Shown here in pieces: positions 1 through 59,102 of a stretch of DNA of 64,000 nt; within the stretch, counting starts at the first letter, position 1, and each line of letters begins with the position of its first letter. The stretch covers positions 4,028,001 to 4,092,000 of the forward strand of contig NZ_CP021382.1 in assembly GCF_002162135.1 (NCBI RefSeq). The letters run 5' to 3'. Both the position numbers and the translations under genes were made by a program. The DNA is from Cellvibrio sp. PSBB006 (lineage in GTDB: Bacteria; Pseudomonadota; Gammaproteobacteria; Pseudomonadales; Cellvibrionaceae). The notes below the pieces were generated by a model that searched no databases, had not been told where the DNA came from, and saw only the letters and a list, made by a program, of their open reading frames with translations.

Positions 1-1046
1 CCTACGCTTATGCCTATCATTTTGATGCGGGGTTATACGCGCAATTTCTGAGGAAGTTTGCAGAAAACAAAGGGTTGGAAAGAATCGAAGGGAAAATTAC
101 CAACGTTAAACAAGATGTCGATTCCGGGTTCATCAAATCCGTTGTAATGGCTTCGGGAGAAGAAATTACGGGTGATTATTTTATTGATTGTTCTGGCTTT
201 CGGTCGTTGCTTCTGGGAAAGACGCTCAATACCCCCTTTGAAGATTGGTCGCCTTGGTTACCTTGTGATAGAGCTGCCGCCGTTCCGTCTGATCGATTGG
301 AATCTTTGGCACCCTATACTCGATCAACAGCGAAGTCGGCGGGGTGGCAGTGGCGTATTCCATTGCAGCATCGCACGGGTAATGGCTATGTATTTAGCAG
401 CCAGTTTATTGGTGAAGATGAAGCAATAGCGAATTTGCTCAAAGATCTGGATGCTTCAGCACTTGCAGAGCCTCGAGTCATCCATTTTCAATCCGGACGC
501 TATAAATATTCCTGGCAAAAAAACTGTATCGCCCTCGGATTGGCGAGTGGTTTCCTGGAGCCACTGGAATCGACCAGTATATATTTGATTCAGGTGGCTA
601 TCTTTAATTTTTTAAAGCTGTTACCCAACAGGAACCCCGATACAGCGCTCATTGATGAGTTTAATCGCCTCGTTGATGTGGAGTATGAGAGGGTCAGGGA
701 TTTTTTGATACTTCACTATCACTTGAATAGCCGCGACGATAAGGATCTGTGGCGCTACTGCAAGAATATGCCCATTCCGGACAGTCTGGCATTAAAGATG
801 GAAATGTTCAGGTTACGTGGGCATATTGATGTCTACAGATACGGATTATTCGCCCCACCTAGTTGGTTATCTGTTTATTTAGGCCAGGGAATGATGCAAG
901 ATAATGTAGACCCCTATGTCAATAACATTCCTGTAGATTACGTGAAAGGAAAATTTCAGGAGTTATCTGCTGCAATAAGACAAAGAGTAGAGCTGATGCC
1001 AACTCACGCAGAATTTATTGCAGATTTCTGCCCTTCGAAATTATAA
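1..1046 (+). CDS. Flavin-dependent halogenase family protein, 3' part (first triad, H1)
   Basis: The reading frame is open from the left edge (first full codon at 3), so the N-terminal FAD-binding part lies outside the window. The visible ~347 residues carry the halogenase signature: a [14 protein letters not shown] stretch holding the WxWxIP motif, and an FLEPLESTS stretch whose second Glu aligns with catalytic Glu346 of PrnA. The family is FADH2-dependent and uses a hypohalous-acid/lysine chloramine mechanism on electron-rich aromatics. Relatives linked to TonB receptors are routinely labelled tryptophan halogenase, but their true substrate is generally unknown. It is followed by a degenerate paralogue only 16 bases after its stop, so it is probably in the same transcript. 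The family call is confident; the substrate is not known. Confidence 0.9.
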   Translation, partial: YAYAYHFDAGLYAQFLRKFAENKGLERIEGKITNVKQDVDSGFIKSVVMASGEEITGDYFIDCSGFRSLLLGKTLNTPFEDWSPWLPCDRAAAVPSDRLESLAPYTRSTAKSAGWQWRIPLQHRTGNGYVFSSQFIGEDEAIANLLKDLDASALAEPRVIHFQSGRYKYSWQKNCIALGLASGFLEPLESTSIYLIQVAIFNFLKLLPNRNPDTALIDEFNRLVDVEYERVRDFLILHYHLNSRDDKDLWRYCKNMPIPDSLALKMEMFRLRGHIDVYRYGLFAPPSWLSVYLGQGMMQDNVDPYVNNIPVDYVKGKFQELSAAIRQRVELMPTHAEFIADFCPSKL

Positions 1047-1062
1047 CGTCAAGGTTATTAAC

Positions 1063-2547
1063 TTGAGCAATAGAATAGAGAAAGTTATCGTGGTCGGGCG
1101 TGACGCGGATGCGTGGCTAACCGCATTGATGCTGCAATTAAGTTTCGCAAATTCTGAAAAAACCTTAAAGGTAGAGCTCATTGAGCTGCCATCGAAGTTG
1201 CATCCTCAGGACTACTACTCAGTCCTGCCCAGCCATAAGGCAATGCATAAAATGCTGGGGATTGACGAACATTCGTTATTGCGCGCGTCATCGGGCTTGT
1301 ATGCATTGGCACAAAGATTTTCCAACTGGTCGCCATCGCATACATTTATGCACGCGTACGATACTCACGGAATTGGTTTTAGTAACATTGACTTTTTCCA
1401 GTATTGGTTAAAGGCCAGCGCAAAAGGTTTGAATGTACCTTTGGAGGATTTCTCATTAGGGGCTGTGGCTGCCAAACAAGGGCGTTTTGTCGTGTTGGAC
1501 GATGCTGCTGAGTCCTTCTCCAAAGCAACGCATGGATACCACCTGAGTGCGTTGCCCTATCTCAAGGTGATTGCCAGTGCGGCAATCAATGCCGGCGTAA
1601 CGCATCACATCAGCGATATTAAATCTATCGATGCTACCAGCGATGCTGTCAGATCTATTCGGTTGCAGGATGATACTCTTGTTGAGGGCGATCTCTATAT
1701 TGATGCTACAGGTAGTGATGCTGCGCTGATCAGTTTGTTCGATCAGGGTGAACATGAAAACTGGCAAGCGTGGTTTCCCTGTGATCGAGTTATAACTGCT
1801 TCTTCACCCCTGCTGAATCCTTCCCCAGCATTCAGTCAAATTGCCGCCTTTGCTAAAGGATGGATAGGCTTTTTTCCGCTATTGAATAGAACCGCCGTTG
1901 CGGCGGTTTATTCTTCAAAGCATACAGAGCATAGCGAAATTATCAGAAATCTACAGGCTATACCCGGCATTAAATTAGATGGCGCCATAGAGAAACCTTT
2001 TTCTGTGAGTGCAAGAAAAAAGCAGTGGATTGGTAATTGTATTGCGCTGGGCTCGGCGGCAGTTAATCTTGATCCACTAGATGCAACGCATATGCATATG
2101 CTCGACGTCGGCCTGTCTTTGTTGAGAACGTTATTTCCTGTTGATAAGACCGCTATGAAAGAGGCCGCTATTTTTAATGAAAAAATGTATTGGCATGCGA
2201 CAAATGCGCGCGACTTTCAAATAACCCACTACAAACTCAATAAGCGTTTTGGGGAGCCTTTATGGGATGAGGTGCGTGATATGGAAATACCGGCCACTTT
2301 AAACGAAAAGTTTGCGTTATTTAAAGCGCGTGGACGAGTTGCCATGCAAGAGCATGAAACTTTTCAGGAAGAAAGCTGGACGTCTATTTTTGTTGGGCAT
2401 GGCTTGCAGCCAATTACCTATGACCCCTTGGTTGATAATATGCCTGAGCAAGAGCAGATAGAGCATTTTCAGAAAATACTAAAATACATTGCCGGTGAAA
2501 TACAAAGCATGCCATCCCTGCAAGCCTATGTTGAAATGAATGCATAA
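1063..2547 (+). CDS. Degenerate flavin halogenase paralogue, probable pseudoenzyme (P1)
   Basis: This 494-residue protein aligns over its whole length with the flanking halogenases but has lost their key motifs. The GxGxxG dinucleotide motif is replaced by VVGRDADAW, the GVGEATIP stretch is gone, the catalytic-lysine position (Lys80 in the next gene) is Ala81, WxWxIP has become GWIGFFP, and the catalytic-Glu position is Asp340. The longest open frame would start at 1018 inside the previous gene. I chose TTG at 1063 because AAGG lies at a proper distance and the resulting N-terminus (SNRIEKVIVVG) matches that of its relatives. The frame is fully open with normal coding character, so it looks retained rather than decaying. 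It may be a partner or regulatory subunit of the intact neighbours; that role is inference. Confidence 0.85.
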   Translation: MSNRIEKVIVVGRDADAWLTALMLQLSFANSEKTLKVELIELPSKLHPQDYYSVLPSHKAMHKMLGIDEHSLLRASSGLYALAQRFSNWSPSHTFMHAYDTHGIGFSNIDFFQYWLKASAKGLNVPLEDFSLGAVAAKQGRFVVLDDAAESFSKATHGYHLSALPYLKVIASAAINAGVTHHISDIKSIDATSDAVRSIRLQDDTLVEGDLYIDATGSDAALISLFDQGEHENWQAWFPCDRVITASSPLLNPSPAFSQIAAFAKGWIGFFPLLNRTAVAAVYSSKHTEHSEIIRNLQAIPGIKLDGAIEKPFSVSARKKQWIGNCIALGSAAVNLDPLDATHMHMLDVGLSLLRTLFPVDKTAMKEAAIFNEKMYWHATNARDFQITHYKLNKRFGEPLWDEVRDMEIPATLNEKFALFKARGRVAMQEHETFQEESWTSIFVGHGLQPITYDPLVDNMPEQEQIEHFQKILKYIAGEIQSMPSLQAYVEMNA

Positions 2548-2570
2548 CATATGATAACAACGAGAATATT

Positions 2571-4094
2571 ATGGGCGAACAAACGATAAAGAATATTGTG
2601 ATTGTTGGTGGTGGAACCGCCGGCTGGATGGCTGCAGCTGCTATCTCTAAAACAGTAGGTTGTCAGACAGTAAATATCACTCTCATCGAATCAGAGGAAA
2701 TCGGTACCGTTGGTGTAGGCGAGGCAACCATTCCAATGATCTCGTTGTTTAATAACGTGTTAGGTTTGGATGAAAATGAGTTTGTTAGGGAGACTAACGG
2801 AACCTTCAAGCTAGGTATTGAATTCGTTGATTGGCGCAAGCCGGGGCACAGCTATTTTCACCCATTTGGCTTGTTGGGTGTTGATATGGATGGTATCAGT
2901 TTTATGCATTACTGGCTGCGCTGGAAAAAAGCCGGTGGCAATCTGGATTATGCAAAATTCAATGCAGAGACCGAGGCGGCAGCGGCATTGAAATTTATGC
3001 GGACCAATCATGAAAGCGGTCCGATGTTAATGCCGAAGATCAACTATGCATTTCAGTTTGATGCGGGGCTTTATGCTGCTTTCTTGCGCCGTTATTCTGA
3101 AAAGCGTGGAGTAGTGCGTAAAGAAGGCAAGATTGTAGATATAAAGCAAGATGCAACGACCGGACATATCGATTGCGTGGTTTTACAAAATGGTGAAACG
3201 ATACGAGGAGATTTTTTTATCGACTGTTCAGGTTTTCGCGGGTTATTGATAGAGCAAGTTCTGCAGGCCGGTTATCACGACTGGAGTCATTGGCTGCCGG
3301 TTAATCGTGCGGTCGCGGTGCCTTGCGAAAGTGCGGGAAAACTCTTGCCTTATACGAGATCGACAGCGCGTGAATTTGGTTGGCAGTGGCGGATACCCTT
3401 GCAGCATCGCACGGGCAACGGCTATGTCTATTGCGATCAATACATTAGTGATGACGAAGCCGCGAGCCAATTACTCGCGCATCTGGATGGGAGGGCGCAA
3501 GCTGAGCCAAAAACGTTGCGCTTCCTGACCGGAATGCGAAAAAAATGCTGGATAAAAAATTGTTTGGCTATTGGTCTTGCCGGCGGGTTTCTTGAACCCT
3601 TGGAGTCAACAAGTATCCATCTGACTCAAGTCGCTATATCAAAACTCTTGGCAATGTTTCCGCGCGATGAATTCAATGAAGCCCTGATAAAACGATTTAA
3701 TGAAGAAATGGAAACTGAGTACGATACAGTGAAAGATTTTCTTATCGCGCATTACAAAGTTACCGAGCGAGAGGATACTCCTTTCTGGCAGTACGTAAAA
3801 AATATGTCGATTCCTGATTCTCTACAAGAGCGTTTGAATATTTTCAAAAAGCGTGGAGAGGTTTTGGCACGACAAACAGAGTTGTTTAAAGAAGTAAACT
3901 GGTTTGTGGTGCTGGTTGGGCAAGGGCTTTTTCCGGAAGGGTATCACCCGGTCGCTGATGCAATTTCCGCGGATGAGCTACGTTTACGTCTGACAAAAAT
4001 ACGCACGGGAATACAAAATCGCATCAATATCATGCCAGGACACGCTGATTTTATAGCGGCGAATTGCAGATCGCCCATGAGCAAGATAGGTTAA
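2571..4094 (+). CDS. Flavin-dependent halogenase, intact (H2)
   Basis: A full-length 507-residue flavin halogenase. It shows GGGTAGW (residues 13-19, FAD binding), GVGEATIP (48-55), Lys80 in TFKLGIEF aligning with catalytic Lys79 of PrnA, WQWRIP at 271-276, and FLEPLEST (340-347) with Glu345 at the catalytic Glu position. Length is normal for the family. It follows P1 by 23 bases and closes the first triad. No flavin reductase gene is visible in the window, so reduced flavin must come from elsewhere. The substrate cannot be read from sequence; free tryptophan is not a safe assumption for TonB-receptor-linked members, of which BrvH from Brevundimonas is a characterised example acting on indole. 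Confidence 0.9.
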   Translation: MGEQTIKNIVIVGGGTAGWMAAAAISKTVGCQTVNITLIESEEIGTVGVGEATIPMISLFNNVLGLDENEFVRETNGTFKLGIEFVDWRKPGHSYFHPFGLLGVDMDGISFMHYWLRWKKAGGNLDYAKFNAETEAAAALKFMRTNHESGPMLMPKINYAFQFDAGLYAAFLRRYSEKRGVVRKEGKIVDIKQDATTGHIDCVVLQNGETIRGDFFIDCSGFRGLLIEQVLQAGYHDWSHWLPVNRAVAVPCESAGKLLPYTRSTAREFGWQWRIPLQHRTGNGYVYCDQYISDDEAASQLLAHLDGRAQAEPKTLRFLTGMRKKCWIKNCLAIGLAGGFLEPLESTSIHLTQVAISKLLAMFPRDEFNEALIKRFNEEMETEYDTVKDFLIAHYKVTEREDTPFWQYVKNMSIPDSLQERLNIFKKRGEVLARQTELFKEVNWFVVLVGQGLFPEGYHPVADAISADELRLRLTKIRTGIQNRINIMPGHADFIAANCRSPMSKIG

Positions 4095-4109
4095 CGATAT
4101 TAAAACGCG

Positions 4110-5111
4110 CTAGAACCTGCTCAATGCTTTCGATAAAGCCATGCGCAGTTGTTTAAGTGCCTCCGGTTTTAATTGGCCTAGAATGCCGCGCCGCTCCTCC
4201 GGTAAATGCTCTGCCGTTTTACCGTCATTAAATACGTAGTGTTCAAACATGGCTTGCCATGCCTGGCGGTGGCGCTCCGGCAGTGAGCGTATTGACATCA
4301 TGGCATGAAGCAAGGCATTTCTCGGATCACCATGCGACTCCCTTGCTTCACCCCACCAGTAATTTATTAATGCATTAATTCCCTCTAAGGCAACCACATG
4401 GTGCCACCACATGTAAGGAATAAAAATCGCATCTCCCGGTTCCAGCTCAGCGTACATGGCCGCTTCTTCAGCCTGTTTGAACTTGGGATATTTTTCATAA
4501 TCAGGTTGGTTAATATCAACCATGCTTATAGTGGCACCGGCAGGCGTGAGTTCAATTGGGCCAACATATAAATTGCTTATCTGTTCTGGCGGAAACAGCG
4601 TGAACCGACGGCGCCCTGCTACGCAACAAGCAATGTTCTCGGAAGAGTCGTAATGTGCAGCTACGGTTGAGCGGCCACCAATCCATATCCGGGGTTCAAT
4701 TTTTTCGGGTAATAAGCCGAGACTGTTTTCCAGCTGTAATCCTGGCAGGTATTGGTGGATGATCACCGATTGGATTGCAAGAGTTGGAGCGGGATTGTCC
4801 TCCATGTGCTCTAACAGGTAATCTAAAGAACCGGGCAGCTTTGCTTGTCCCATGCGACAATTCAGACCACTCATATCCTTGTTATAAAAGATCCGCCCGC
4901 CGATAGATGGAGGGCCATACACGGTATTTACGTCATAGCCCCTATCGAAACGTTTTAAATAATTACAAAACGAAACGGCGCCGCTTTTTCCTGCTTCAAC
5001 AATTGGCCATGTATTTACCAAGCCTCGCATAACGACGGGCTTACCTGTTGGTAAGACCTCGTTATGAAATTCATCCGCGCTGACGTTATATGCTTCTGCA
5101 ATGGGTTTCAT
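4110..5111 (-). CDS. Cupin-like (JmjC/FIH-type) oxygenase domain protein
   Basis: A 333-residue protein of the cupin_8/JmjC-like fold. A metal-binding HxD triad element is visible as HYD (residues 153-155), with the distal His in WWHHVV (237-238), the usual 2-His-1-carboxylate Fe(II) arrangement of 2-oxoglutarate dioxygenases. GRRRFTLFPPEQ is typical of the FIH/JmjC branch. It is convergent with H2 (15 bases between stops) and divergent from the TonB receptor. Cupin-like proteins of this type commonly accompany TonB receptor and halogenase genes in Xanthomonas and Caulobacter, so it probably belongs to the same functional unit. Whether it hydroxylates a protein side chain or a small molecule is not known. 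There is no signal peptide, so it is cytoplasmic. Confidence 0.85.
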   Translation of the reverse strand: MKPIAEAYNVSADEFHNEVLPTGKPVVMRGLVNTWPIVEAGKSGAVSFCNYLKRFDRGYDVNTVYGPPSIGGRIFYNKDMSGLNCRMGQAKLPGSLDYLLEHMEDNPAPTLAIQSVIIHQYLPGLQLENSLGLLPEKIEPRIWIGGRSTVAAHYDSSENIACCVAGRRRFTLFPPEQISNLYVGPIELTPAGATISMVDINQPDYEKYPKFKQAEEAAMYAELEPGDAIFIPYMWWHHVVALEGINALINYWWGEARESHGDPRNALLHAMMSIRSLPERHRQAWQAMFEHYVFNDGKTAEHLPEERRGILGQLKPEALKQLRMALSKALSRF

Positions 5112-5341
5112 AGTTATTCCATGTTGACGTTAGCCTGCGAGTATAAATCACTTATTTCCTGAATTATTAACTCAACTATTGGAGGCTGATAATGTGGGAA
5201 TTATGGCGTTAATTTCCCTATTAAACAAATTTTTATTAATGAATTTTCTGTTTGCCAAGGCATATAAATTTTGGATACGCCCCCAAGCCTACAAGCTAAC
5301 TTATTGTTCTTGTATGCTAGTGCTTTAAACTTATAGTCATG

Positions 5342-5370
5342 TTGACATACAGTGGGGTGGCGTATAGGAT
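5342..5370 (+). promoter_or_regulatory. Probable sigma-70 promoter for the TonB receptor
   Basis: A perfect TTGACA (5342-5347) is separated by 17 bases from TAGGAT (5365-5370), giving a leader of about 90 bases to the receptor start. This lies in the 355-base gap (5112-5466) between the divergent cupin and receptor genes. The ribosome-binding site AAGAAGGGG ends six bases before the ATG. I see no clear LacI-type palindrome or other operator in this gap. Confidence 0.5.
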
Positions 5371-5466
5371 TGCATAACCAATACGCCGTATTCGCGACTA
5401 TTGGCGCACATAAAAATAGCTTTGCAGTAAAAATACCTATTAATAATATATAAGAAGGGGTTATTT

Positions 5467-8400
5467 ATGGTTTCCCATAAAAATCACGCGCCTTACCCAT
5501 TTTCCCAACACCCAGTTAAATTTAAGAAATCGCTTCTGGCCATGTGTGTGATGGCATTGAGTGCGCCTGCGCTTGCACAGCAGCCAGAAGTCGATGCAGA
5601 AACCGGACCTGTTGAAGAAATTGTTGTCAGTGGTGTTCGCACAAATTTACAAAATGCACAGAACATCAAGCGTAACGCAGACACCTTTGTAGATTCCATT
5701 TCTGCATCAGATATTGGCTCTCTACCCGATCGCAGTGTGCTTGAGGCTATGCAACGTCTGCCAGGTATTTCCATCGAGCGCTTTGCCGGTGTGGACGATC
5801 CAGACCATTTCAGCGTTGAAGGTAGTGGTGCTGTAATTCGTGGCATGACTGCTACGCGCAGTGAATTTAACGGACGCGACTCATTCACGGCTAACTCTGG
5901 GCGCGGTTTGAGTTTTCAGGATGTTCCACCGGAGTTAATGGGTGGTGTGGATGTTTATAAAAACCAATCTGCCGACATGATCGAGGGCGGCATTGGCGGT
6001 ACAGTTAGTCTTCGTACCCGCAAGCCTTTTGATGCTCCTGACAGAGTAATTGCGTTTTCCGGTGATGTTTCTTATGGCGATATGGCTGAAGAAGCAACAC
6101 CAACATTGTCTGCGCTTTACAGTGACCGTTGGGAAACTGGTGCAGGAGAGATGGGCATTTTGTTCAATATCGCCCACTCCGAATTGAAAGGTACATCTCA
6201 CGGTATCCAAAGTGACGCGTACGTGCAGTATGACGCATCGGTTTTACCGGGCGCAGAAGCATTTGTCGGTGACGGCACTGGCAAAGTATGGATGCCGAAT
6301 GGTTCCAATGCCACGATGAAATTTGATGATCGTGAGCGTAAAGGTTATGCCGCTGCCTTCCAGTGGGAAACACCAGATCAGACATTAGTATCCACCTTTC
6401 AATTTATGCGCTCTGATGCCACCTTGGCGTGGACTGAAAATGCACTGAAATATCAGAATGGCTATTACGACCCCGGTGCAGAAGTCGATAAACGTTTTAC
6501 TCGTCCATTGGATGGAACAGAATTTACGTTTGATGATGAAGGTATTTTCCTTGCGGGTGTTATGGCGGATTCGGAAGGTTGGCGTAGTGCTGACGGCAAT
6601 CAGGACCATATTCCCAGAAGCTATGAAGGTGCTAACGTAGCACTTTTTGGACACAAATTTCAGACGGATACGCGCTACAAACGAACCAATACGCTGGTTG
6701 ACGATTATGCATTGAATTTCAAATGGACACCCGATGAAACATGGGAGTTCGAGTTGGATCTGCAATATATCGAAGCAGAAACTGTGGATGATGATCTGGT
6801 TATACATCTAGGGATCAATGCGCTGCAAGATTACGATACCCGTGGTGATACACCAACGCTCACATTGATCGAACCCTGGAATGGGTTGCGCGATAATAAT
6901 CCGGATGATTTTGCTACAGGTTTTCCTGGCTTTTCTGGCGACCCGGCGGGCGACAGCAATTACTTTCAAGACCCGAACAGCTATTGGTGGCGGTCAGCGA
7001 TGGACCACTATGAGCGCTCGGAAGGTGACTCTGTTGCCAGTCGTTTTGATGTGACCTACAACATCGATGATGATGGCGGCATGTTAAAAGCTGTTAAAGC
7101 CGGTATTCGTTTTGCTGAGCGTGAGCAGGTGGTGAGGAACACTGCATGGAATTGGGGAAGCTTAGGGCCTGAGTTCAGTGGTTCCGCGCCGGCAATGTGG
7201 TTAACTGATCCGGCAGCGGCCGATCAGGAATATGTTTTCGTCGACTGGAGTGATTTCCATCGCGGCGATTCCATGACGATTCCAGGTGGTGGTTTGCTTC
7301 ATGCCTCTGAAGATTTGGTTAAACAAGTTTTGTTTGAAAACCGTGCCTTGGCCAAAACGGCTGGTGGTGAGTGGGTGCCATACCCGTCACGTGGTGATGT
7401 TGTTCCGGGCACGCAGTTTGCTCCATCAGAAATATACACTACAACCGAGACCAATGAGGCAGCATACATTCGTCTGGATTTTGGGTCTGATGAAACCGCA
7501 ATACGCTTTAGCGGTAATATTGGTTTACGCTATGTGAACTTTGAGCGCGATGCGTTAGGTTCTATCGAATTTCCAGATCTGGTTTCTGAGTTCCCGGTTC
7601 CTGATGGTTTACCAAGTTCCTTGACTCCGGAAATTGTGGCAGCTTATGCACAGCCTTTTATCGATAACGGCACTTATGATGATCTCGCTGATTTTTATGA
7701 AGACGATGACAATAACTGGGCAAGCCACGACCGCAATTATTTAAGTGCTGAAGAGCAGGGTTATGGTAACAATGCCTTTACCTTGCAAAGTGCAATTGAT
7801 AAATACAGCGCAACCTTACCCAGCTTTAATTTAAAGGTAGAGCTGACAGATGATTTAATTGCCCGTTTCGCTGCATCCAAGGCTATTGCGCTCCCCGATA
7901 TGGGTGACGTGCGTAATCAATCACGCCTCAGTGCAACTTCGGTTGAGGGTATCTATCCAGTAATCGATCCTGATAATCCACCGGCAGAAGGCGAGCCGCG
8001 TTTTATTGAAGGTGCTTATGTCAGTGGATGGGAAGGCAGCGGCGGTAATCCCTACCTGCAGCCCATGGAGTCTACCCAGTTCGACGTTTCTCTGGAGTGG
8101 TATTTCGCTGAAGTTGGGTCATTGACAGGTACAGTCTTTTACAAAGATCTTAGTAACTTCTTTATCTACGGTGCCTTCCCACAAACATTCACTAATCCGG
8201 TTTCCGGTGTGACGGAAACCGTTGATGTGACCGGTACGCGTAATGGCGGTGAAGGTACGATGGAAGGGTTTGAAATTGCTTATCAGCAATTTTATGACAT
8301 GCTGCCTGCGCCTTGGGATGGTTTAGGTTTACAAGTTAACTACACCTATATTGAAGCGAGTGGTGTGCCCAACAATGAAGTATCGCTGGATGATGCAGAT

Positions 8401-8790
8401 TGGGTGGGTGGTGATAACGACACCGGCGCCCGTGTATCACTGGATAATGTTCCTTTGCAGGGCCAATCCAAAGAAACGTTCAATATCGTCGGTATGTACG
8501 ATAAAAACGATTGGTCGGTGCGTCTGGCGTATAACTGGCGTTCCAGATACCTGCTGACCACGCGCGACGTTATCAGTAAGTATCCATTATGGAATGATGA
8601 CGCGGGTTATCTTGATGGTTCTGTGTTCTACAACATCAACGATAACATTACCGTGGGTATGCAATTTACCAACCTTGCTAATACGCAAACCAAAACCATC
8701 ATGATTCTGGATGGCGAAGGTGCCGAAGCAGGTCGTTCATGGTTCGTTAATGACCGTCGTGCAGCCCTTATTGTAAGAGCAACGTTCTAA
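5467..8790 (+). CDS. TonB-dependent receptor, Xanthomonas/Caulobacter type
   Basis: A 1107-residue outer-membrane active transporter. A signal peptide ends around ALAQ (residues 36-39), followed by a TonB-box-like EEIVVSGVR (50-58) and a plug domain with the hallmark NAQNIKRNADTFVDSISASDIGSLPDRS-type sequence of the TonB-Xanth-Caul family. A long beta-barrel ends in an aromatic residue (final Phe), as outer-membrane assembly requires. Members of this family import plant glycan oligosaccharides in Xanthomonas and Caulobacter. Its position between two halogenase triads and beside a xylan locus suggests an oligosaccharide or plant-derived ligand, but the ligand is inference. It has no N-terminal signalling domain and no sigma/anti-sigma neighbour. 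A strong terminator follows. Confidence 0.95.
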   Translation: MVSHKNHAPYPFSQHPVKFKKSLLAMCVMALSAPALAQQPEVDAETGPVEEIVVSGVRTNLQNAQNIKRNADTFVDSISASDIGSLPDRSVLEAMQRLPGISIERFAGVDDPDHFSVEGSGAVIRGMTATRSEFNGRDSFTANSGRGLSFQDVPPELMGGVDVYKNQSADMIEGGIGGTVSLRTRKPFDAPDRVIAFSGDVSYGDMAEEATPTLSALYSDRWETGAGEMGILFNIAHSELKGTSHGIQSDAYVQYDASVLPGAEAFVGDGTGKVWMPNGSNATMKFDDRERKGYAAAFQWETPDQTLVSTFQFMRSDATLAWTENALKYQNGYYDPGAEVDKRFTRPLDGTEFTFDDEGIFLAGVMADSEGWRSADGNQDHIPRSYEGANVALFGHKFQTDTRYKRTNTLVDDYALNFKWTPDETWEFELDLQYIEAETVDDDLVIHLGINALQDYDTRGDTPTLTLIEPWNGLRDNNPDDFATGFPGFSGDPAGDSNYFQDPNSYWWRSAMDHYERSEGDSVASRFDVTYNIDDDGGMLKAVKAGIRFAEREQVVRNTAWNWGSLGPEFSGSAPAMWLTDPAAADQEYVFVDWSDFHRGDSMTIPGGGLLHASEDLVKQVLFENRALAKTAGGEWVPYPSRGDVVPGTQFAPSEIYTTTETNEAAYIRLDFGSDETAIRFSGNIGLRYVNFERDALGSIEFPDLVSEFPVPDGLPSSLTPEIVAAYAQPFIDNGTYDDLADFYEDDDNNWASHDRNYLSAEEQGYGNNAFTLQSAIDKYSATLPSFNLKVELTDDLIARFAASKAIALPDMGDVRNQSRLSATSVEGIYPVIDPDNPPAEGEPRFIEGAYVSGWEGSGGNPYLQPMESTQFDVSLEWYFAEVGSLTGTVFYKDLSNFFIYGAFPQTFTNPVSGVTETVDVTGTRNGGEGTMEGFEIAYQQFYDMLPAPWDGLGLQVNYTYIEASGVPNNEVSLDDADWVGGDNDTGARVSLDNVPLQGQSKETFNIVGMYDKNDWSVRLAYNWRSRYLLTTRDVISKYPLWNDDAGYLDGSVFYNINDNITVGMQFTNLANTQTKTIMILDGEGAEAGRSWFVNDRRAALIVRATF

Positions 8791-8818
8791 ACCTCGTTTG
8801 TGATAGCCTCTCCTTTGA

Positions 8819-8844
8819 GCGCGCCTTTCGGCGCGCTTTTTTTT
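8819..8844 (+). terminator. Rho-independent terminator after the TonB receptor
   Basis: A perfect 7-bp stem GCGCGCC/GGCGCGC (8819-8825 and 8830-8836) with a TTTC loop is followed by eight T residues (8837-8844), 29 bases after the receptor stop. It separates receptor transcription from the second halogenase triad. Confidence 0.9.
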
Positions 8845-8929
8845 CGATAGATAAAACTCATCGCCCGGCGGGTGATAGCCCGCTATTTTCTGGCTACAAT
8901 AAACCCTGATAACAATAAACGGGGAAGAT

Positions 8930-10483
8930 ATGCCAAGCCAACGAATTCAGCAGGTTGTTATAGTCGGTGGTGGTACGGCCGGCTGGATGACGGCGGCTGC
9001 GCTGGCGCGCTTCCTGCCATCAGCGATTTGTAAAATTACCTTGATTGAATCTGAGCAGATTGGCACCGTCGGTGTTGGTGAGGCGACTATTCCCCACATT
9101 CGCCACTTTAATCAATTGCTGGGTGTCGATGAAAATGAATTCATCCGGGCAACCCAGGCGACTTATAAGCTCGGTATTCAATTCAGTGGCTGGGGCTATC
9201 CCGGTACCTCATACATTCATCCCTTTGGGCTTTATGGTCACGATATCAGTGGAATAGATTTCCATCATTACTGGTTGCGCCTGCGGTCGTTGGGCGATGA
9301 GGCGCCCTTGGAGAATTATTCCATCGCGGCTGTTGCGGCACTCGCGAAAAAGTTTGCTTACCCTGATGCGAATCCGGATTCTCCGCGTTCGGATTTTGGT
9401 TATGCCTTTCATCTGGACGCTTCGCTCTATGCGCAGTTTTTGCGGTGCTACGCCGTGCAAAAAGGTGTGGTGCGTATTGAAGGAAAAATTGATCAGGTTC
9501 AGTTTTCATCGACAACAGGTTTTATCGAAACCGTGATGCTTGAAAGTGGAGAGCAGCTCGCGGGACAACTCTTTATTGATTGTTCCGGTTTCAGGGGCTT
9601 GCTGATAGAAGGCGCACTGAAAACCGGCTATGAAGATTGGCGGCACTGGCTTCCCTGTGATCGCGCCGTAGCCATGCCATGCGAGCGCACAGGTGATCCG
9701 CTACCTTATACGCGCGCGATTGCACAAAAAGTTGGCTGGCAATGGCGTATACCCTTGCAGCACCGTACCGGTAATGGCCACGTGTATTGCAGTGATCACC
9801 TCAGTGATGATGAAGCTGCGTATCAATTGCGCCATCAGATAGATGGTGAGGCAACCGGTGAGCCAAATTTTTTACGCTTTGTGACCGGCCGGCGCAAACG
9901 GAGCTGGAACAAAAATTGTGTTGCTATCGGTTTGGCCAGTGGGTTTCTGGAGCCGCTGGAGTCAACCAGTATTTATTTAATTCAGGTGGGCATTTTAAAA
10001 CTGCTGGAAAACTTTCCGGATGCGGACTTTGCAGACGTTGATCGCACCGAATTTAATCGCCATATTGATCTTGAGTATCGTCGTGTGCGAGATTTTCTGA
10101 TCTTGCATTACAAAGCCAATGCGCGCATGGGCGAGCCTTTCTGGGATGCCTGCCGCACTATGGCTATTCCTGAAGAATTGGAACGGAAGATCAATTTATT
10201 TCGCGAATCTGCCCATATTGAACATTACCAACAGGGACTATTTATGACGCCCAGTTGGCTCGCAGTTTATATCGGACAGGGTGTCATTCCGGACGCTTAT
10301 GATGCGCGCGTTGCGCGCCACACCAGGGAAACCATCGCCGCGTATTTGGAGAAACTGCATCAAGGTATCCGTGTGGATGTTGATGCTATGCCCAGCCATA
10401 ACACCGCGATTCAACATGCAATAAACGCTATTAGCGCACGCTACCCGGAGGCCAGCATGAGTCTCTATGGTTTACAACGATGA
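8930..10483 (+). CDS. Flavin-dependent halogenase, intact (H3, second triad)
   Basis: A full-length 517-residue halogenase with all family landmarks: GGGTAGW (13-19), GVGEATIP (48-55), Lys80 in [22 protein letters not shown], and [11 protein letters not shown] holding the catalytic Glu. GGGGAAG lies just upstream of the ATG. The stop overlaps the start of the next gene in an ATGA arrangement, so H3 and P2 are translationally coupled. Sequence and gene order mirror H1 of the first triad. Substrate unknown. Confidence 0.93.
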   Translation: MPSQRIQQVVIVGGGTAGWMTAAALARFLPSAICKITLIESEQIGTVGVGEATIPHIRHFNQLLGVDENEFIRATQATYKLGIQFSGWGYPGTSYIHPFGLYGHDISGIDFHHYWLRLRSLGDEAPLENYSIAAVAALAKKFAYPDANPDSPRSDFGYAFHLDASLYAQFLRCYAVQKGVVRIEGKIDQVQFSSTTGFIETVMLESGEQLAGQLFIDCSGFRGLLIEGALKTGYEDWRHWLPCDRAVAMPCERTGDPLPYTRAIAQKVGWQWRIPLQHRTGNGHVYCSDHLSDDEAAYQLRHQIDGEATGEPNFLRFVTGRRKRSWNKNCVAIGLASGFLEPLESTSIYLIQVGILKLLENFPDADFADVDRTEFNRHIDLEYRRVRDFLILHYKANARMGEPFWDACRTMAIPEELERKINLFRESAHIEHYQQGLFMTPSWLAVYIGQGVIPDAYDARVARHTRETIAAYLEKLHQGIRVDVDAMPSHNTAIQHAINAISARYPEASMSLYGLQR

Positions 10484-11979
10484 ATAGTGAAGCGATACAA
10501 AATATCGTCATTGTCGGTGGCGGCGTTGTGGGGTGGACGGCAGCGGCAATACTGGCCAGAGCATTAAAGTCCGAGCCTATCAAAATAACACTGCTTGATC
10601 TTCCCGGCTTGCCAGCAGATGACATGGCAGAATCAAGCTTGCCGGGGATACGTCCGCTGCATCAGATGTTGGGGTTTGATGAGCGTCAGTTGATGAGCAT
10701 CACCGGCGCGACCTTTAAACTGGGCACAGAATATCAGGGCAATAACGCTCGGTCATTTATTCACCCCTTGGGGAGACTGGCAACAACGACTGCCGCATTT
10801 GATCAGCAGGTAATCAGGTTGCACCATGCGGGCGAACATATTTCTTACGACGATTTTTTTCTGGCGGCTGTTGCGGCACGACATGGAAAATTTGCATTTC
10901 CTGAACAGAATAAAAAAAATATCCTGTCGACCTTATCCTGCGGTCTTCATCTCAATGTCGATGCGTATAAAAAATACCTGCGTGATTATGCACATTATTT
11001 GCAGGTAACGTCTCTTCAAGCTCGTGTTCAAGGTGTGGAGCTTTGTCCTGATTCGGGTTTCATTAATGCGGTTGTGTTCGATGATAACACTAGCCTAAGC
11101 GGTGATTTATTTATCGATTGCTCCGGTGAAATGTCGGTGCTGATCGGCGATCCGGCGCTGGCGGTTGATTACTGCTCCTGGGCGGCTGATTTGCCTGTAG
11201 ATCGTGTTATGAATTTCTCAATTCCCTATGGGCCAGAGGAATCCACATTGCGGCCGCTGACAAGCATTCAGGCAATGCCTTGGGGTTGGCAACGAACTAT
11301 TCCGCTACAGCAACATCGCGTCCAGCAATATATCTACCATTCCGACTTGTTGGGTGACGAAACGTTACTCGCAGAGCTCCAACGTCTGGGCCTTTCGGCG
11401 AATGCAACCCATACCTCCAAACATATCAGGCCGGGTCACCGCACCGTATGGTGGAAAGCTAATTGTGTTGCTATCGGTACGGCGGCAGGTAACATTACCT
11501 CGTTGGCCATCTCGGAGTTGCAGTGGGCACAATCTGCTTTGGTTCGTTTGCTGGATTATTTTCCGCATAAAGCATGCAAGCCCTGTAATACAGCAGAATA
11601 TAATCGCTTAAGTCTGGGTGAGTTTGAGCGTTTGCGGGATTTTCATATTGCCCATCAATTATTGCTGCACACGGATTCAGCCTTTGGTCGCCTGTGTCAG
11701 GAAAAATCGCCGCCCATAACTTTACAGCATCGTCTGGATTTGTTTCGCCACCGTGGCAGAATAGGTGCGTATGAATACGATGTCATATCAGATCAACTTT
11801 GGGCCGCATTTTTTCTGGGATTAAATTGCTGGCCGGAACGCTATGACATCATGACCGATGCCCTGGCAGAAAAAGAATTATTGCAACAACATCAGCATAT
11901 CAGGCAGGCGGTGCAAAAAACCGTTGACGCCATGCCCAATCATCACGAAGTACTTGCACGCTATTGCCCTGCTCGTTAG
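10480..11979 (+). CDS. Degenerate flavin halogenase paralogue, probable pseudoenzyme (P2)
   Basis: A 499-residue halogenase-fold protein. The FAD motif survives as GGGVVGW and Lys80 is kept (TFKLGTEY). However, GVGEATIP has become [14 protein letters not shown] has become WQRTIP so the second Trp is lost, and the FLEPLEST stretch has become NITSLAIS, placing Ala343 at the catalytic Glu position. It may bind flavin but is unlikely to halogenate. Its start overlaps the H3 stop (ATGA), and no good independent ribosome-binding site is seen, so it should be made in step with H3. It occupies the same middle position as P1 but has lost a different set of residues. A structural partner role for H3/H4 is inference. 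Confidence 0.87.
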
Positions 11980-11993
11980 AACTGGAGATATCT

Positions 11994-13511
11994 ATGTCGG
12001 ATAATCGTATTGAACACATTGTCATTGTTGGTGGTGGTACCGCCGGGTGGATGACGGCGGCTGCCATGGCCAAAGTGCTCAAGAACCAATACTGCAACAT
12101 TCACGTGATTGAATCAGAAGACATCGGTACGGTCGGTGTTGGTGAGGCAACGATTCCCCAAATCCAGTTATACAATCGTTTGTTGGGTTTGGATGAAGAT
12201 GATTTTGTTCGCCGCACACAGGGCACATTTAAATTGGGTATTCAGTTTGTTAACTGGAGTCACATCGGCAGCTCATACATTCATGCCTTCGGCGATGTCG
12301 GTAAGGACATGGATGCAATCCAGTTTTACCATTATTGGTTGAAGTTATACCAGGCAGGTGAGGTGCCGGATATTGGCGAGTACACGCTCACCGCTATCGC
12401 GGCGCGCAAAGGAAAATTCATGCGCTCCATTGACGCAGGCAATTCACCTTTGTCCAATATTGCCTATGCATTCCATTTTGATGCCGGGCTCTACGCGCGT
12501 TATTTGCGCGAATATTCTGAGCAGTTAGGTGTTGTGCGCACAGAGGGCAAGATTACGCACGCTAACCTCAATCATGACAACGGGTTTATTGAATCCGTTG
12601 CGCTGGAAAACGGTGCGGTGATCAAAGGTGACTTATTTATTGATTGCTCAGGTTTTCGCGGTTTGCTGATTGAGCAGGCGTTAAAAACCGGCTACGAAGA
12701 CTGGACCGATTGGTTACCCTGTGATCGCGCCTGGGCGGTACCTTGCGAGAGCGCGGGCGATCCAACACCTTATACGCGCTCCACCGCGCACGCGGCTGGT
12801 TGGCAGTGGCGTATCCCGTTGCAGCATCGCATTGGCAACGGTCATGTCTATAGCAGTCGCTACATGAGTGACGATGAGGCAGTTAATATTCTGCTCAATA
12901 ATCTCGACGGTGCCCCCTTGGCCGAACCGCGTTTGTTAACATTTACCACAGGCAAGCGCCATAAATTCTGGAATAAAAATTGTGTGGCTATCGGCTTGGC
13001 CAGCGGTTTTATGGAGCCGCTCGAATCCACCAGTATTCACCTGGTGCAATCCAGTATTGCGCGGTTGATGAGTTTATTTCCGAATAAACATTTTGATCAG
13101 GAAGATATTGATGAATTCAATCGCCAGGCGCACTTTGAGTATGATCGTATCCGCGACTTCCTGATTCTGCACTATCACGCAACCACTCGCGATGACTCAC
13201 CCTTCTGGAATTATTGTCGCACCATGAGTATCCCGGAAGAGCTGCAACAAAAGATCAACCAGTTTAAAAAGAACGGTCGCATCTATCGCAACAGTGTGGA
13301 GATGTTCAATGACCTGAGTTGGCTGGAGGTGATGCATGGTCAGGGAATTCAGCCGCGCGCTTATCACCCGATTGTTGATGTCATGCCCAAAGATGAGTTG
13401 ATGAAGCGTATGGCTGGAATTAAATCGGTGATTGATCGCTCAGTTGAGGTCATGCCGTCTCATGCGGAGTTTATTGCAGAGCACTGTAAAGCTGAAAAAT
13501 TAATGATGTGA
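11994..13511 (+). CDS. Flavin-dependent halogenase, intact (H4)
   Basis: A 505-residue protein with complete motifs: GGGTAGW (13-19), GVGEATIP (48-55), Lys80 in [22 protein letters not shown] and [11 protein letters not shown]. The open frame extends to 11964 inside P2. I prefer ATG 11994 because GGAG lies six bases upstream and the N-terminus then matches its relatives. It is the last gene of the second triad, 14 bases after P2. It is convergent with the minus-strand xylan genes across a hairpin. Substrate unknown. Confidence 0.93.
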
Positions 13512-13561: not shown

Positions 13562-14209
13562 TTATTCAACGCAGCCTTTTTCACCTTCGGCCAAGCGCTC
13601 CAGGCGTACATTCGTAATACTCAGGGTCAATTTTCCTTCGGTACCGATGGTTAAAGGCCCGGATATTTTGCTGAGGTCAAAGCCATCATCACTCTTGAAG
13701 CAGTTCAGTGGCACCGGCAGACTGAACCATTCACCCGCAGGAAATTCAGTCAGCAGCTTGCGTATCTGCACCTCCCCACGACAGGGCCAGGTGCAGCTCA
13801 TACTCAAGGTGACGCCTTTGGTGGGGCGCTTATCCACGCGGATATCCATGGCCAGGGCTGCTGCGTCTTTAAAATTAGCGATATCAATCGCGGGACCAAC
13901 AATGCTCAATGTGGCGGTATCTTTTTTACCATTCCAGCTTGCCTGTAGCGCATCGCCTTTGCCTTTAAAGTCTGTCGGCTTGATCGATAACTTACCGCTT
14001 TTCGATTGCCCGGTACGATCCTGAACCGCCAGGGCCCAATCGCTGGGGTCGCCCAGCATTAATCCCCAGGGCGCAACGAGTTGACCTTGATTGAGATAGA
14101 AAAATGTCGGGTTCTCGGTTTGCGCTGATGCGGGAGCAATAAACAAACCACACATCAACAAGCTGATAAGGTGCAGGGTTTGGCTGAAGCGAAGGGTGGT
14201 GTGAAACAT
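13562..14209 (-). CDS. Secreted stand-alone ExoP-type galactose-binding-like domain protein
   Basis: A ~215-residue exported protein (signal peptide ending near APASAQ). The mature part reads like the C-terminal galactose-binding-like domain of GH3 exo-glucanases of the ExoP type: LVAPWGLMLGD, VDKRPTKGVTLSM, CTWPCRG, and an ending of the form GKLTLSITNVRL. Here the domain stands alone with no catalytic module. The open frame begins with TTG at 14224; I prefer ATG 14209, with GAGG nine bases upstream. It is the last gene of the minus-strand xylan cluster. A role as a secreted carbohydrate-binding accessory is inference. Two Cys pairs suggest disulphides and a periplasmic or extracellular location. 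Confidence 0.75.
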   Translation of the reverse strand: MFHTTLRFSQTLHLISLLMCGLFIAPASAQTENPTFFYLNQGQLVAPWGLMLGDPSDWALAVQDRTGQSKSGKLSIKPTDFKGKGDALQASWNGKKDTATLSIVGPAIDIANFKDAAALAMDIRVDKRPTKGVTLSMSCTWPCRGEVQIRKLLTEFPAGEWFSLPVPLNCFKSDDGFDLSKISGPLTIGTEGKLTLSITNVRLERLAEGEKGCVE

Positions 14210-14294
14210 GGGTGGCATCCTCAATAATTATTGTTTGATAGATAAGGAGTAACGCGCCACCATGGTTGCAAAGGGCATAGGAAAAGTCAAACAA

Positions 14295-14320
14295 CCGCAG
14301 GATTGATATAAACCCTGCGG
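14295..14320 (-). terminator. Hairpin between GH43 and ExoP-like genes
   Basis: A 7-bp stem (CCGCAGG 14295-14301, CCTGCGG 14314-14320) lies just after the GH43 stop. On the minus strand it is followed by a T-rich but imperfect tract. It may attenuate read-through to the ExoP-like gene. Confidence 0.4.
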
Positions 14321-14339
14321 GTCGGTCGGTTAATGAGGA

Positions 14340-15470
14340 TTATTTTTTAAATGCACTGAGTGTTTGGATACTGCCATCAGCATGATGTGTCAGCTCGGTT
14401 ACTTTGACATTGCGCAAATGGGTTTTGCCACCGGACAACTGGCTGTCGTGATAGAACAAATACCATTTGCCATTAAATTCCACGATAGAGTGGTGGTTGG
14501 TCCAGCCCAACACTGGCTCAAGGATTATCCCTTGATAAGTAAAGGGTCCGTAAGGGCTATCACCGACGGCATAAGCAATGTTATGCGTGTCGCCAGTTGA
14601 GTAGGAAAAATAATACCGGCCATTGTATTTGTGCACCCAGGCTGCCTCAAAAAAGCGTCGCTCGGTATCGCTGGCCAACAATGGCTGGCCTTGTTGATCC
14701 AGAAGTTGAACATCTTTTAAATCTTCAGCCAGGTTGAGCATGCTCTCATCCAGGCGTGCGATTTTAGGCATTAACGCTGGCTGGTCATCTGCGGGATATT
14801 GATCGCTGGTCTGATAGCTGCCGCTGCTCCAGCGTTGTAATTGTCCGCCCCAAATGCCGCCTACATATAAATAATAGCTGCCATCGGTATCTTTAAATAC
14901 GGCGGGGTCGATGCTGTAGCTGCCTTTGATCGGTGTCGGTTCGGCGGTAAACGGGCCGCTGGGAGAATCGCTCGCGGCTACACCGATACGAAAGATGCCC
15001 TGCTGATCTTTAGCAGGAAAATATAAATAATACTTGCCCGCTTTTTCAGCGGTATCGGGTGCCCAGAGTTGCCTGCTCGCCCAGGGTACATCCTCAAGCG
15101 CCAGGGCCACACCATGATCCGTCACCTCGCCGCCCACAGCATCCATGGAGAGCACATGGTAATCCTTCATGTCGAATCTATCGCCTTCGCCACTGGTGGC
15201 GATATCCGTTTTAATATCGTGCGACGGATAAATGTAAAGGCGACCGTTAAAGACATGCGCTGAGGGATCGGCAGTAAAGATATGGTCGACTAAGGGTTGC
15301 GATGCAAACTGTGGCTCATGCCTGGGCTGAGATTTTTCCTGCACAACCGTCGTCACGGCATTTTCAGTCGTTGTGCTAACGGGAGTATGAGTGTCCGCGG
15401 TTTTTTCCTGGCAGGCAAAAAGGACGCTGGTCAGGAAAACAACGCTACCAAGCTGAAATGTTCTAGACAT
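14340..15470 (-). CDS. GH43 family lipoprotein (beta-xylosidase / alpha-L-arabinofuranosidase type)
   Basis: A 376-residue lipoprotein with lipobox LFAC (lipidated Cys20). The five-bladed GH43 residues are visible: base Asp68 (TADPSAH), pKa-modulating Asp188 (SIDPAVF) and acid Glu275 (FFEAAWVHKYNGRYYFSYS). The start at 15470 gives a compact lipoprotein signal; the longer frame to 15527 would overlap the gene upstream and spoil the signal. The mannonate dehydratase ends 34 bases upstream, so the two are probably co-transcribed. In this context it should trim xylose or arabinose from xylo-oligosaccharides at the cell envelope. The exact specificity cannot be read from sequence. Confidence 0.88.
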   Translation of the reverse strand: MSRTFQLGSVVFLTSVLFACQEKTADTHTPVSTTTENAVTTVVQEKSQPRHEPQFASQPLVDHIFTADPSAHVFNGRLYIYPSHDIKTDIATSGEGDRFDMKDYHVLSMDAVGGEVTDHGVALALEDVPWASRQLWAPDTAEKAGKYYLYFPAKDQQGIFRIGVAASDSPSGPFTAEPTPIKGSYSIDPAVFKDTDGSYYLYVGGIWGGQLQRWSSGSYQTSDQYPADDQPALMPKIARLDESMLNLAEDLKDVQLLDQQGQPLLASDTERRFFEAAWVHKYNGRYYFSYSTGDTHNIAYAVGDSPYGPFTYQGIILEPVLGWTNHHSIVEFNGKWYLFYHDSQLSGGKTHLRNVKVTELTHHADGSIQTLSAFKK

Positions 15471-15504
15471 GCATGCAACCCCCAAAAATACTATTAAAGC
15501 AGAA

Positions 15505-16713
15505 TTACCAATGCCACAAGGTGCCATCTTCCAGGCGATTCACTGGCAGGCAGGCGCGCTTATAAGGATACTGTGCCGCCAGTTTTTCATCGATATCCAC
15601 ACCGTGCCCCGGCGCTTCACCGGGCGTGAAGTAACCATCATCGAAACGGTAGGCATGAGGAAAGACTTCATCCATTTGTTCGCTGTGCGCCATGTGTTCC
15701 TGAATACCGAAGTTAGGCACCCAGTAATCAAAATGTAGCGCGGCGCCCATACAGATCGGTGATAAATCCGTCGCGCCATGGCATCCGGTACGCACATTAA
15801 ACAGCGCGGCGAAGTCGGCGATACGGCGCAGGTGGGTGATGCCGCCAGCGTGAACAATCGTGGAACGAATATAATCGATTAACTGGTTCTGAATAAGCTC
15901 GCGACAATCGTGAATGCTGTTAAATACTTCACCAACCGCCAAAGGTGTTGTGGTGTGTTGACGAATGAGTTTAAACGCATCCTGATTTTCAGCGGCAACC
16001 GCATCTTCCATCCAGAATAAATGGTAAGGCTCCAGTTCTTTGCCAAGGCGCGCTGCTTCAATAGGTGTCAGGCGGTGATGCACATCGTGTAACAAATGCA
16101 AATCCGGTCCGAACGCCTTGCGCACTTCGGCAAATAATTCCGGAATAAAGTTCAGGTACTTTTCTGTCGACCAGGTTTCCACGGAAGGCAGATCACTATC
16201 GGCAGGTTCGTAATTTTTATTGTCTTTTGCTACACCGTAAGTCTTTTCAATACCGGGAATACCACACTGCACGCGAATCGCTTTGTAGCCCTTGGCTTTG
16301 GCTTTGGCCACGGCTTCCAGTGTGGATTCCAGGTCTCTGCCATTGGCATGGGTGTAAGTCATAATGCGCTCGCGGCTGCGGCCGCCGAGCAGCTGGTAAA
16401 GCGGCATATTGGCTGCTTTGGCTTTGATATCCCACAGTGCGGTATCAACAGCGGCCAGCGCCGTCATACCCACAGGGCCGCGCCGCCAGTACGCACCGCG
16501 ATAAAAAAATTGCCAGATATCTTCAATCTGGTGCGGGTCGCGGCCAATCAATGCCGGAATTAAATAATCTTCCAGATAGGATACGACGGCTTTTTCACGG
16601 CCATTCAAGGTGCCGTCACCTACGCCGTAAATTCCCTTATCGGTTGTAATCTTCAACGTGACAAAATTTCTGCCGGGTGAGGTAACAATGACTTTGGCTG
16701 CAACAATCTTCAT
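15505..16713 (-). CDS. D-mannonate dehydratase, RspA/ManD type (enolase superfamily)
   Basis: A 402-residue enolase-superfamily protein. N-terminal capping domain and barrel carry the metal ligands and catalytic residues in LLHDVHH, FWMEDAV and AVGEVFN, plus [19 protein letters not shown], all typical of ManD/RspA. ManD dehydrates D-mannonate to 2-keto-3-deoxygluconate, the last hexuronate-specific step after glucuronate isomerisation and reduction. It sits directly between the GH115 alpha-glucuronidase and the GH43 gene. This placement fits catabolism of glucuronic acid released from xylan. Some RspA-like members have low activity, so an authentic mannonate dehydratase is likely but not certain. 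Confidence 0.88.
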
Positions 16714-16752
16714 TCATTCATGCTCTTCAATGTGATGATACTGCCTGCTCTA

Positions 16753-19671: not shown

Positions 19672-19904
19672 GGATGAAGTCACTTTAAACGGGAAGTCAT
19701 TGTCCAACTGGAAAGTCGATGGTCACGCGGGCCACATCAATGGCCCATCATACAGGGCTTAGGCAAGGCATGCTCGCCAGGGCAATTTATCTGCCGTTTC
19801 AGCCGCCGTTAGTCGTGGCTTGTGGAAACAGGCTCCCCGAGTCCGCTTATCGACATTTTCTTCTTGCGTTAAAAAATCGATAAGCGGTCAGACACTTAAA
19901 TATG

Positions 19905-42349: not shown

Positions 42350-42399
42350 AAGGAGGTTTCCTTAATGGGCCGTTGCCAGTCGACAGCTGCCCGATATTA

Positions 42400-42879: not shown

Positions 42880-43044
42880 GGGATAAAACAGTCCTGATAA
42901 CGCGAAAAGGGCGGCATTATATCGACAAAGGGTGCGGCCTGTCTCGACTCCGGGCTTATGCTGTCGTGTTAATCCCGCTACAATCCGGCTCAGCGCCCTC
43001 GGGAGCCGTGCTTCATCATCCAGCAGCTACACGGAGCCACATCA

Positions 43045-56003: not shown

Positions 56004-56041
56004 GGGTTTGCCTGGCTATTGTCGTGTCAGTGGAGAGGTGA

Positions 56042-57920: not shown

Positions 57921-57922
57921 GA

Positions 57923-59101: not shown

Positions 59102-59102
59102 A

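Follow-up and report, generated by a model that had tools for sequence, protein, structure and literature searches.

Why should a bacterium retain, between two apparently intact flavin halogenases, a related gene that has lost its catalytic residues, and why should it do so twice at one locus? This question is raised by a stretch of 64,000 nucleotides from Cellvibrio sp. PSBB006 (hereafter the window; positions 4028001-4092000 of NZ_CP021382.1, the one contig that makes up its 5.26 Mb genome). Its first 13,511 positions carry two blocks, or triads, of halogenase-family genes, H1-P1-H2 and H3-P2-H4, in which H stands for an intact halogenase and P for a pseudo-halogenase, and each triad follows a gene for a TonB-dependent receptor (TBDR). 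Our results suggest that receptor-halogenase operons have repeatedly kept an inactive-looking second halogenase over long evolution, and that it forms with its neighbour a so far unrecognised pair of a working and a non-working enzyme.

Degeneration of the middle genes

All six genes match PF04820 along the whole family length (P1 304, P2 322, H2-H4 632-672 and H1 587 bits), and these matches, together with the catalytic motifs, confirm the two intact/degenerate/intact blocks reported in a first-pass annotation made from the letters of the window. H1-H4 retain GGGTAGW, the catalytic lysine (T[FY]KLG), WQWRIP and EPLEST. The roles that we assign to the flavin adenine dinucleotide (FAD) motif, the Lys, the Glu and WxWxIP come from the work on BrvH, whose K83A mutant is inactive (PMC5945002).

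The loss of catalytic motifs that the annotation ascribed to both middle genes is complete in P1, which lacks all four and reads GRDADAW at the glycine loop, LYALA (no Lys), WIGFFP and DPLDA (Asp for Glu). It is partial in P2, which lacks the catalytic Glu, WxWxIP and GVGEAT but retains GGGVVGW and the Lys (TFKLG); its altered segments include DMAESSLP, the replaced WQWRIP and, where PLEST would stand, SLAIS (E to A). All other full-length PF04820 proteins of this genome, 24 of 26, have these catalytic residues. As annotated, neither reading frame is interrupted, and the first bases of P2 coincide with the end of H3, its stop included (a 4-base overlap, 10480-10483). Of the marks of a pseudogene, a broken frame was not found in P1 or P2, nor relaxed selection in the position-2 genes of relatives.

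Both proteins are predicted to keep the full-length halogenase fold. The AlphaFold2 monomer models reach a predicted local distance difference test (pLDDT) of 91 and a predicted template-modelling score (pTM) of 0.90, and the P1 model matches BrvH with a template-modelling (TM) score of 0.92. Alignment columns conserved at 95% or more in both intact positions number 90, and position 2 keeps 33 of them at 80% or more. The kept columns concentrate at residues 351-450 (11/13 vs 22/77 elsewhere, p 0.0002, for a range picked after seeing the data): position 2 has preferentially kept its C-terminal part and lost the cofactor-binding and catalytic part.

Conservation of the gene order in relatives

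The first-pass annotation had proposed looking for the triad in related genomes, and its order is indeed conserved in many of them: TBDR-H-P-H recurs in Cellvibrionaceae, Caulobacter, Brevundimonas, Asticcacaulis, Sphingomonas and others. Our main survey was a profile scan of species genomes of which the best 80 loci were taken, and genes were classed as I (intact) or X (degenerate, without Lys and/or Glu). Its 74 classified arrays of at least two adjacent halogenases read IXI (43), IXII (13), IX (16), XI (1) and II (1), next to 13 single intact genes, and a TBDR is present in 71 of the 74 loci. Wherever an array has three or more genes, X stands second and nowhere else (56/56).

The main survey is biased towards arrays with a degenerate gene, where the scan pattern mostly lies. 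Among 20 arrays that we checked, 19 have the pattern in the degenerate gene, L123 carrying it in an intact one as well, and only L122 had been met through an intact gene. Duplicates of congener loci (L062, L063, L076, L087) were left out of the counts, and arrays with cut or split members were skipped (L090, L107 for its end fragment only, L120, L129, L138); the single X labels in L086 and L091 reflect truncation at the edge of the locus and not degeneration.

Thirteen arrays were not picked through their degenerate gene, and all 13 have a degenerate second gene and a TBDR in the stretch. Besides L122, these are L149-L154, the six new arrays of at least three genes in ten named genomes that were listed whole, all IXI or IXII by motif, and L156-L161, recognised by coordinates among the PF04820 matches listed for eight congeners, picked from those without a P1 orthologue, and for 12 family genomes, every tenth being taken. 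L158-L162 read IXI; L155 is the L077 array and L162 the L122 array, each counted once.

Overall, all 71 classified distinct same-strand arrays of at least three halogenases have a degenerate second gene (two in the window, 56 in the main survey, L146, L149-L154 and L156-L161), and they are not independent events, because many share ancestry. The second gene is the sole degenerate one in 69 of the 71; L156 and L157 read I-X-I-X-I, with degenerate genes second and fourth, as though two triads shared their middle intact gene.

The layout varies around this core. Four-gene H-P-H-H arrays again have the pseudo gene second (L106, L112, L114, L119, L121, L123, L125, L127, L128, L133-L136), a shortened TBDR-H-P-cupin form, in which a cupin gene replaces the third halogenase, is found mainly in Caulobacter and Sphingomonas (L099, L100, L101, L103, L104, L107, L108, L111, L116), and two congeners have H-X-TBDR-H (L165, L166). 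Same-strand pairs of intact genes, recognised by score and spacing, are found as well (for example G199, G202, G207; G001, G014, G009; G105, G085). These pairs lie in the same genomes, so that a degenerate gene is characteristic of arrays with at least three halogenases but not of every receptor-linked halogenase cluster. An evenly drawn class-wide survey yielded too few halogenases for judging arrays.

The probable partner of the position-2 protein

We favour the reading that these operons encode a flavin halogenase that is heteromeric, dedicated to the receptor and built with one non-catalytic subunit. That such a complex exists, how it acts and on what substrate is what we infer here, and we put the probability of this reading at roughly 0.58. 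The arrays encode a conserved non-catalytic homologue beside an active enzyme, which is one feature of heteromeric enzymes with a pseudo-subunit, such as Ams8-Ams9 and KS-CLF.

In the main survey, an intact halogenase lies directly upstream of the degenerate gene in 72 of 73 cases and downstream of it in 57 of 73; the 16 arrays without the downstream gene keep H and P, and in nine of them a Cupin_8 gene directly follows P. As the upstream gene is nearly constant and the downstream one often missing, we take the position-1 halogenase to be the partner. Pairwise distances of P correlate at 0.83 with those of position 1 and at 0.79 with those of position 3 (35 P1-type arrays; no significance value is attached to these figures). 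From gene order and sequence distances, it is likely that the position-1 halogenase and P form a core pair to which the third halogenase is optional. The multi-subunit complex proposed in the first pass therefore survives as a retained, non-catalytic, receptor-linked partner, which tree, gene order and approximately unbiased (AU) tests support, but the data favour a pair with an optional third member and not an obligate three-part assembly.

These linkage figures also bear on another explanation, in which the position-2 protein acts as an adaptor or sensor. It would bind the receptor, a regulator, or a ligand of aromatic or glycan nature, would form no stable halogenase complex and would be kept for co-expression. 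Loss of the catalytic residues with retention of the fold would suit such a role, as would the finding that different position-2 types keep different residues, whose contacts may be system-specific, and the existence of an array with P and no position-1 gene (L066, see below). The tighter linkage to position 1 than to position 3, and the distances that track position 1 best, are harder to accommodate, and we consider an adaptor or sensor unlikely, if a serious contender.

P1 and P2 as protein families

The non-catalytic member of the proposed heteromeric halogenase has many relatives. P1 has at least 279 homologues at E <= 1e-20 among the 8000 best candidates scored; in the 120 listed, the catalytic Lys is never present (0/120), Asp replaces Glu in 119 and GRDAxAW-type N-termini prevail. 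An alignment of 31 P1-family proteins has 60 invariant columns, and the family has near-invariant residues of its own (GRDAxAW, QRF and the D for E). P1 orthologues of at least 40% identity are present in seven of 20 congeners.

Among the matches listed, P2 has eight close relatives of 38-97% identity, with Ala for Glu in all eight and the Lys in seven, and each of the next 112 has both Lys and Glu. A close P2 relative is found in at least one of 143 other family genomes, a lower bound given that ten candidates were scored in many of them. Weaker matches to the P2 profile occur in congeners (L156, L157, L165, L166; the degenerate genes of L165 and L166 reach 328 and 354 bits), and of three P2 relatives examined more closely, two (G059, G060) are intact single halogenases. 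The P1-type homologue P0003 and the P2-type P0123 both list a longest contig of 29010 bases, and one relative may carry both triads on a single contig. Taken together, the alignments suggest a large pseudoenzyme family with one predicted precedent, Ams8. We found no description of a P1-type pseudoenzyme family in the openly licensed full-text literature.

The residues that are kept might also mean that the position-2 protein is not dead and has acquired a new chemistry. The family-specific GRDAxAW, QRF and D for E of the P1 type would agree with this, as would the GGGxxGW and Lys of P2. In the P1 family, however, no single residue is fixed at the Lys site (S, V, A, C, T) and the glycine loop has disappeared, and we saw no new motif common to all position-2 types; a new enzymatic activity appears to us somewhat less probable than an adaptor role, and improbable overall.

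Phylogeny and selection

The first-pass annotation had asked whether P1 groups with P2, H1 with H3 and H2 with H4. In a 66-row site-mixture tree, a single clade (100/100) unites all 21 rows of position 2, among them P1, P2 and three database proteins placed in this position by assumption. H1 and H3 lie in a second clade (94/78), which holds the 18 position-1 rows. H2 and H4 fall among the position-3 genes, which do not form one clade. H2 joins position-3 genes of P1-type arrays (100/97). H3 groups with position-1 genes of Gilvimarinus/Marinimicrobium triads (100/100), and H4 with the position-3 genes of these triads (100/99). BrvH, Xcc4156 and 9luq received no clear positional assignment when placed, and the trees leave out the diverged position-2 genes of the L146, L149-L154 and L156-L161 sets.

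AU tests reject a grouping of the P2 type with its own position 3 or position 1 (p 0.017 and 0.036) and of the P1 type with its own-triad neighbours (p 0.0006 and below 1e-60). Two long-separated operon types stand side by side in the window. A recent tandem duplication of one triad within the window was rejected: identity between the counterparts is only 24-54%, and either triad has closer kin among the triads found in other genomes.

Position-2 genes are under purifying selection: the ratio of nonsynonymous to synonymous substitution rates (dN/dS) is 0.07-0.51, median 0.23 (15 of 17 locus pairs of relatives gave usable values; the pairs overlap, and the window genes are not among them). We give almost no credence to the idea, named in the first pass as a possible outcome, that P1 and P2 are recently decaying copies of neighbouring halogenases: their faster evolution and a motif loss that is graded across position-2 genes would fit it, but the frames are open, the dN/dS of relatives is well under 1, the 120 listed homologues show the same loss, the family is deep, a gene of this kind stands second in every classified array of at least three halogenases, and an own-triad origin is rejected by the AU tests.

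Genomic setting

The unit TBDR-H-P-H occurs twice on one strand, as TBDR1-H1-P1-H2 and TBDR2-H3-P2-H4, with a Cupin_8 gene on the opposite strand between them (Table 1). The annotation was right to place a receptor and a cupin gene between the triads; the receptor is that of triad 2, and the cupin gene is assigned to triad 1, since it has the same place in relatives (G020, G015, G019, G011). What it missed is a second TBDR directly upstream of H1 (genome 4024184-4027477, 1097 aa, TIGR01782), by virtue of which each triad has its own receptor. The two receptors score 632 and 638 bits, above the curated TIGR01782 cut-off of 310, and so are assigned to the same model as all nine of the other halogenase-adjacent receptors of this genome that were tested. 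H1 extends 457 bp beyond the window (whole gene, genome 4027544-4029046); the P1 open reading frame (ORF) opens at 1018, and its start was placed near 1054-1063 by alignment with homologues.

Table 1. Features of the two triads and their surroundings, in window positions (the last row in positions of locus L066)
Feature	Position	Strand	Basis
H1, intact halogenase, triad 1 position 1	1..1046 (window part)	+	open 5' end, motifs
P1, pseudo-halogenase, triad 1 position 2	1063..2547	+	PF04820, motifs, homologue search, model pLDDT 91
H2, intact halogenase, triad 1 position 3	2571..4094	+	PF04820, motifs, tree
Cupin_8 / JmjC-like oxygenase	4110..5111	-	PF13621; HxD...H residues seen in sequence
TBDR of triad 2	5467..8790	+	TIGR01782
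H3, intact halogenase, triad 2 position 1	8930..10483	+	PF04820, motifs, tree
P2, pseudo-halogenase, triad 2 position 2	10480..11979	+	PF04820, motifs, homologue search, model pLDDT 91
H4, intact halogenase, triad 2 position 3	11994..13511	+	PF04820, motifs, tree; ORF from 11964
Glucuronoxylan genes: Exop_C domain protein, GH43, mannonate dehydratase ManD, GH115	13562..19707	-	domain matches; order recurs after triads in relatives
P1-type gene region of L066	1-2780		non-halogenase ORF in place of position-1 halogenase

Downstream of the triads lie genes for an Exop_C protein (ExopC), GH43, ManD, GH115, GH10, a sugar transporter, a Nudix-type regulator, an FGGY kinase and GH3, and by these matches the region is a predicted glucuronoxylan locus. 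One gene there, without a Pfam match at 1e-10, we take for a xylose isomerase. In four of the seven P1-bearing congeners the order is TBDR-H-P-H-cupin-ExopC, followed by GH43 and ManD in G020, G019 and G011, the G015 stretch ending at the contig end after ExopC; in the stretches of the other three (G007, G005, G010), none of the cupin, ExopC, GH43 and ManD genes was found. In L122, too, ExopC, GH43 and ManD follow a triad; the match of its middle gene to the P2 profile is weak (78 bits). Relatives of both triad types thus adjoin glucuronoxylan genes elsewhere, and the window gives the appearance of two triad types brought together at a single xylan locus, with triad 2 between cupin and ExopC. 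A homologue of at least one of ten query setting genes was found at 19 of 83 loci and at one of 13 other halogenase loci of this genome; given this sparse linkage, most triads elsewhere probably serve other substrates.

Elsewhere in the genome, the loci L014 (2836001-2856000) and L015 (3116001-3136000) hold a TBDR, a halogenase of a second subfamily (GVGEGTWP), a gene that we presume to be SapC-like, a cupin gene and an intact halogenase of the window type; L164 has a similar layout minus the cupin. The gene at 3844262-3845761 (L017) is the sole halogenase of the 26 without a receptor-sized ORF nearby in the ORF list, and the remaining ones appear to share a cluster with such an ORF, confirmed by profile in part. 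An ORF that we take to be adenylosuccinate synthetase-like precedes the triad in the congener locus L158 (3-995) and in this genome (4022424-4023716), and the insertion site may therefore be shared. Further into the window, we presume that 40976-44430 encodes two similar transporters in opposite orientation, resembling sodium:neurotransmitter-type symporters, and that 52905-60083 carries genes for a resistance-nodulation-division (RND)-type efflux pump, a membrane fusion protein and an outer-membrane factor, adjoining a BlaR1/M56-like membrane peptidase.

Discussion

Under the heteromeric reading, the operon type would comprise a TIGR01782 receptor, a catalytic flavin halogenase, its non-catalytic homologue, usually a second catalytic halogenase and often a Cupin_8 oxygenase. 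The position-2 protein would be a pseudo-subunit: still folded as a halogenase, it would dimerise with the position-1 enzyme much as two copies of an ordinary halogenase do, and the heteromer would have been derived from such a homodimer by duplication. It may steer substrate choice or activity, and the operon would serve the uptake system of its receptor, here for glucuronoxylan.

Several observations weigh against this reading. In L066 (Phenylobacterium), the order is a non-halogenase ORF, which we presume to be tetratricopeptide repeat (TPR)-like, then P and an intact halogenase, with no receptor in the stretch; the pairing of position 1 with P is thus not absolute. Pairs of two intact genes without a degenerate partner exist, such as L113. 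In a quick tree of 107 rows, position 2 is again one clade and position 1 is not. When the pseudo types are added singly, three of five attach beside position 1, and the P1 and P2 types attach elsewhere, with weak or no stated support; the single origin of position 2 is not firm, since it rests on long branches. In most pairs the evolutionary rate at position 2 exceeds that of the neighbouring genes, and in L160 and L161 divergence has gone so far that the position-2 gene is scarcely detected by the family model. The full inactivity of P2 is less certain, because this protein keeps the FAD loop and the Lys. Finally, the linkage of these genes could reflect shared regulation only.

The closest solved relatives of H2, H4 and the P1 profile are BrvH (PDB 6frl), Xcc4156 (6y1w) and the Pseudoalteromonas L11 halogenase (9luq), which have the same fold and, unlike P1 and P2, all catalytic residues in our alignments. 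BrvH elutes as a dimer with an open active site (PMC5945002), and Xcc4156 shows the common dimer in crystals and may be monomeric in solution (PMC7336383); both have the usual halogenase dimer in crystals, and the available parts of these papers mention no degenerate partner. The closest precedent is Ams8, a halogenase homologue without the lysine (PMC13311259). Its pairing with Ams9 is a prediction backed by a knockout phenotype, since armeniaspirol is not made without ams8. As in the triads, a catalytically impaired homologue would form a heterodimer with an active one; Ams8-Ams9 is a single case of PltA-like, carrier-protein-linked pyrrole chlorination in a natural-product cluster, whereas the triads are receptor-linked, occur in many genera and have an optional third halogenase. 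The ketosynthase-chain length factor (KS-CLF) pair, cited in the same source, also joins an active enzyme to a homologous non-catalytic subunit (PMC13311259), but its fold and chemistry are unrelated and its complex is proven, where ours is predicted.

As for the receptors, both belong to the Xanthomonas/Caulobacter type of TIGR01782, a model that covers the receptor alone and not the halogenase genes. We recognised no account of a receptor-linked intact/degenerate/intact array in a full-text search of openly licensed papers. To our knowledge, the natural substrates of BrvH-like halogenases are not settled.

A more speculative proposal, which we hold to be doubtful and a little less probable than a new chemistry of the position-2 protein, is that the triad is a receptor-maturation machine. 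The position-1/2 heterodimer, helped by the third halogenase and the Cupin_8 oxygenase, would halogenate and hydroxylate aromatic or other side chains of its own TBDR, or of a partner protein. This would happen in the cytoplasm, ahead of export, and the pseudo-subunit would dock the polypeptide. If true, this would be a dedicated protein-halogenating complex that tunes nutrient uptake.

If, as we favour, the pseudo-subunit belongs to the enzyme, single halogenases studied out of context would miss the true activity, and the right partner would be the gene directly downstream of the position-1 halogenase. The finding would also tie halogenation to carbohydrate uptake.

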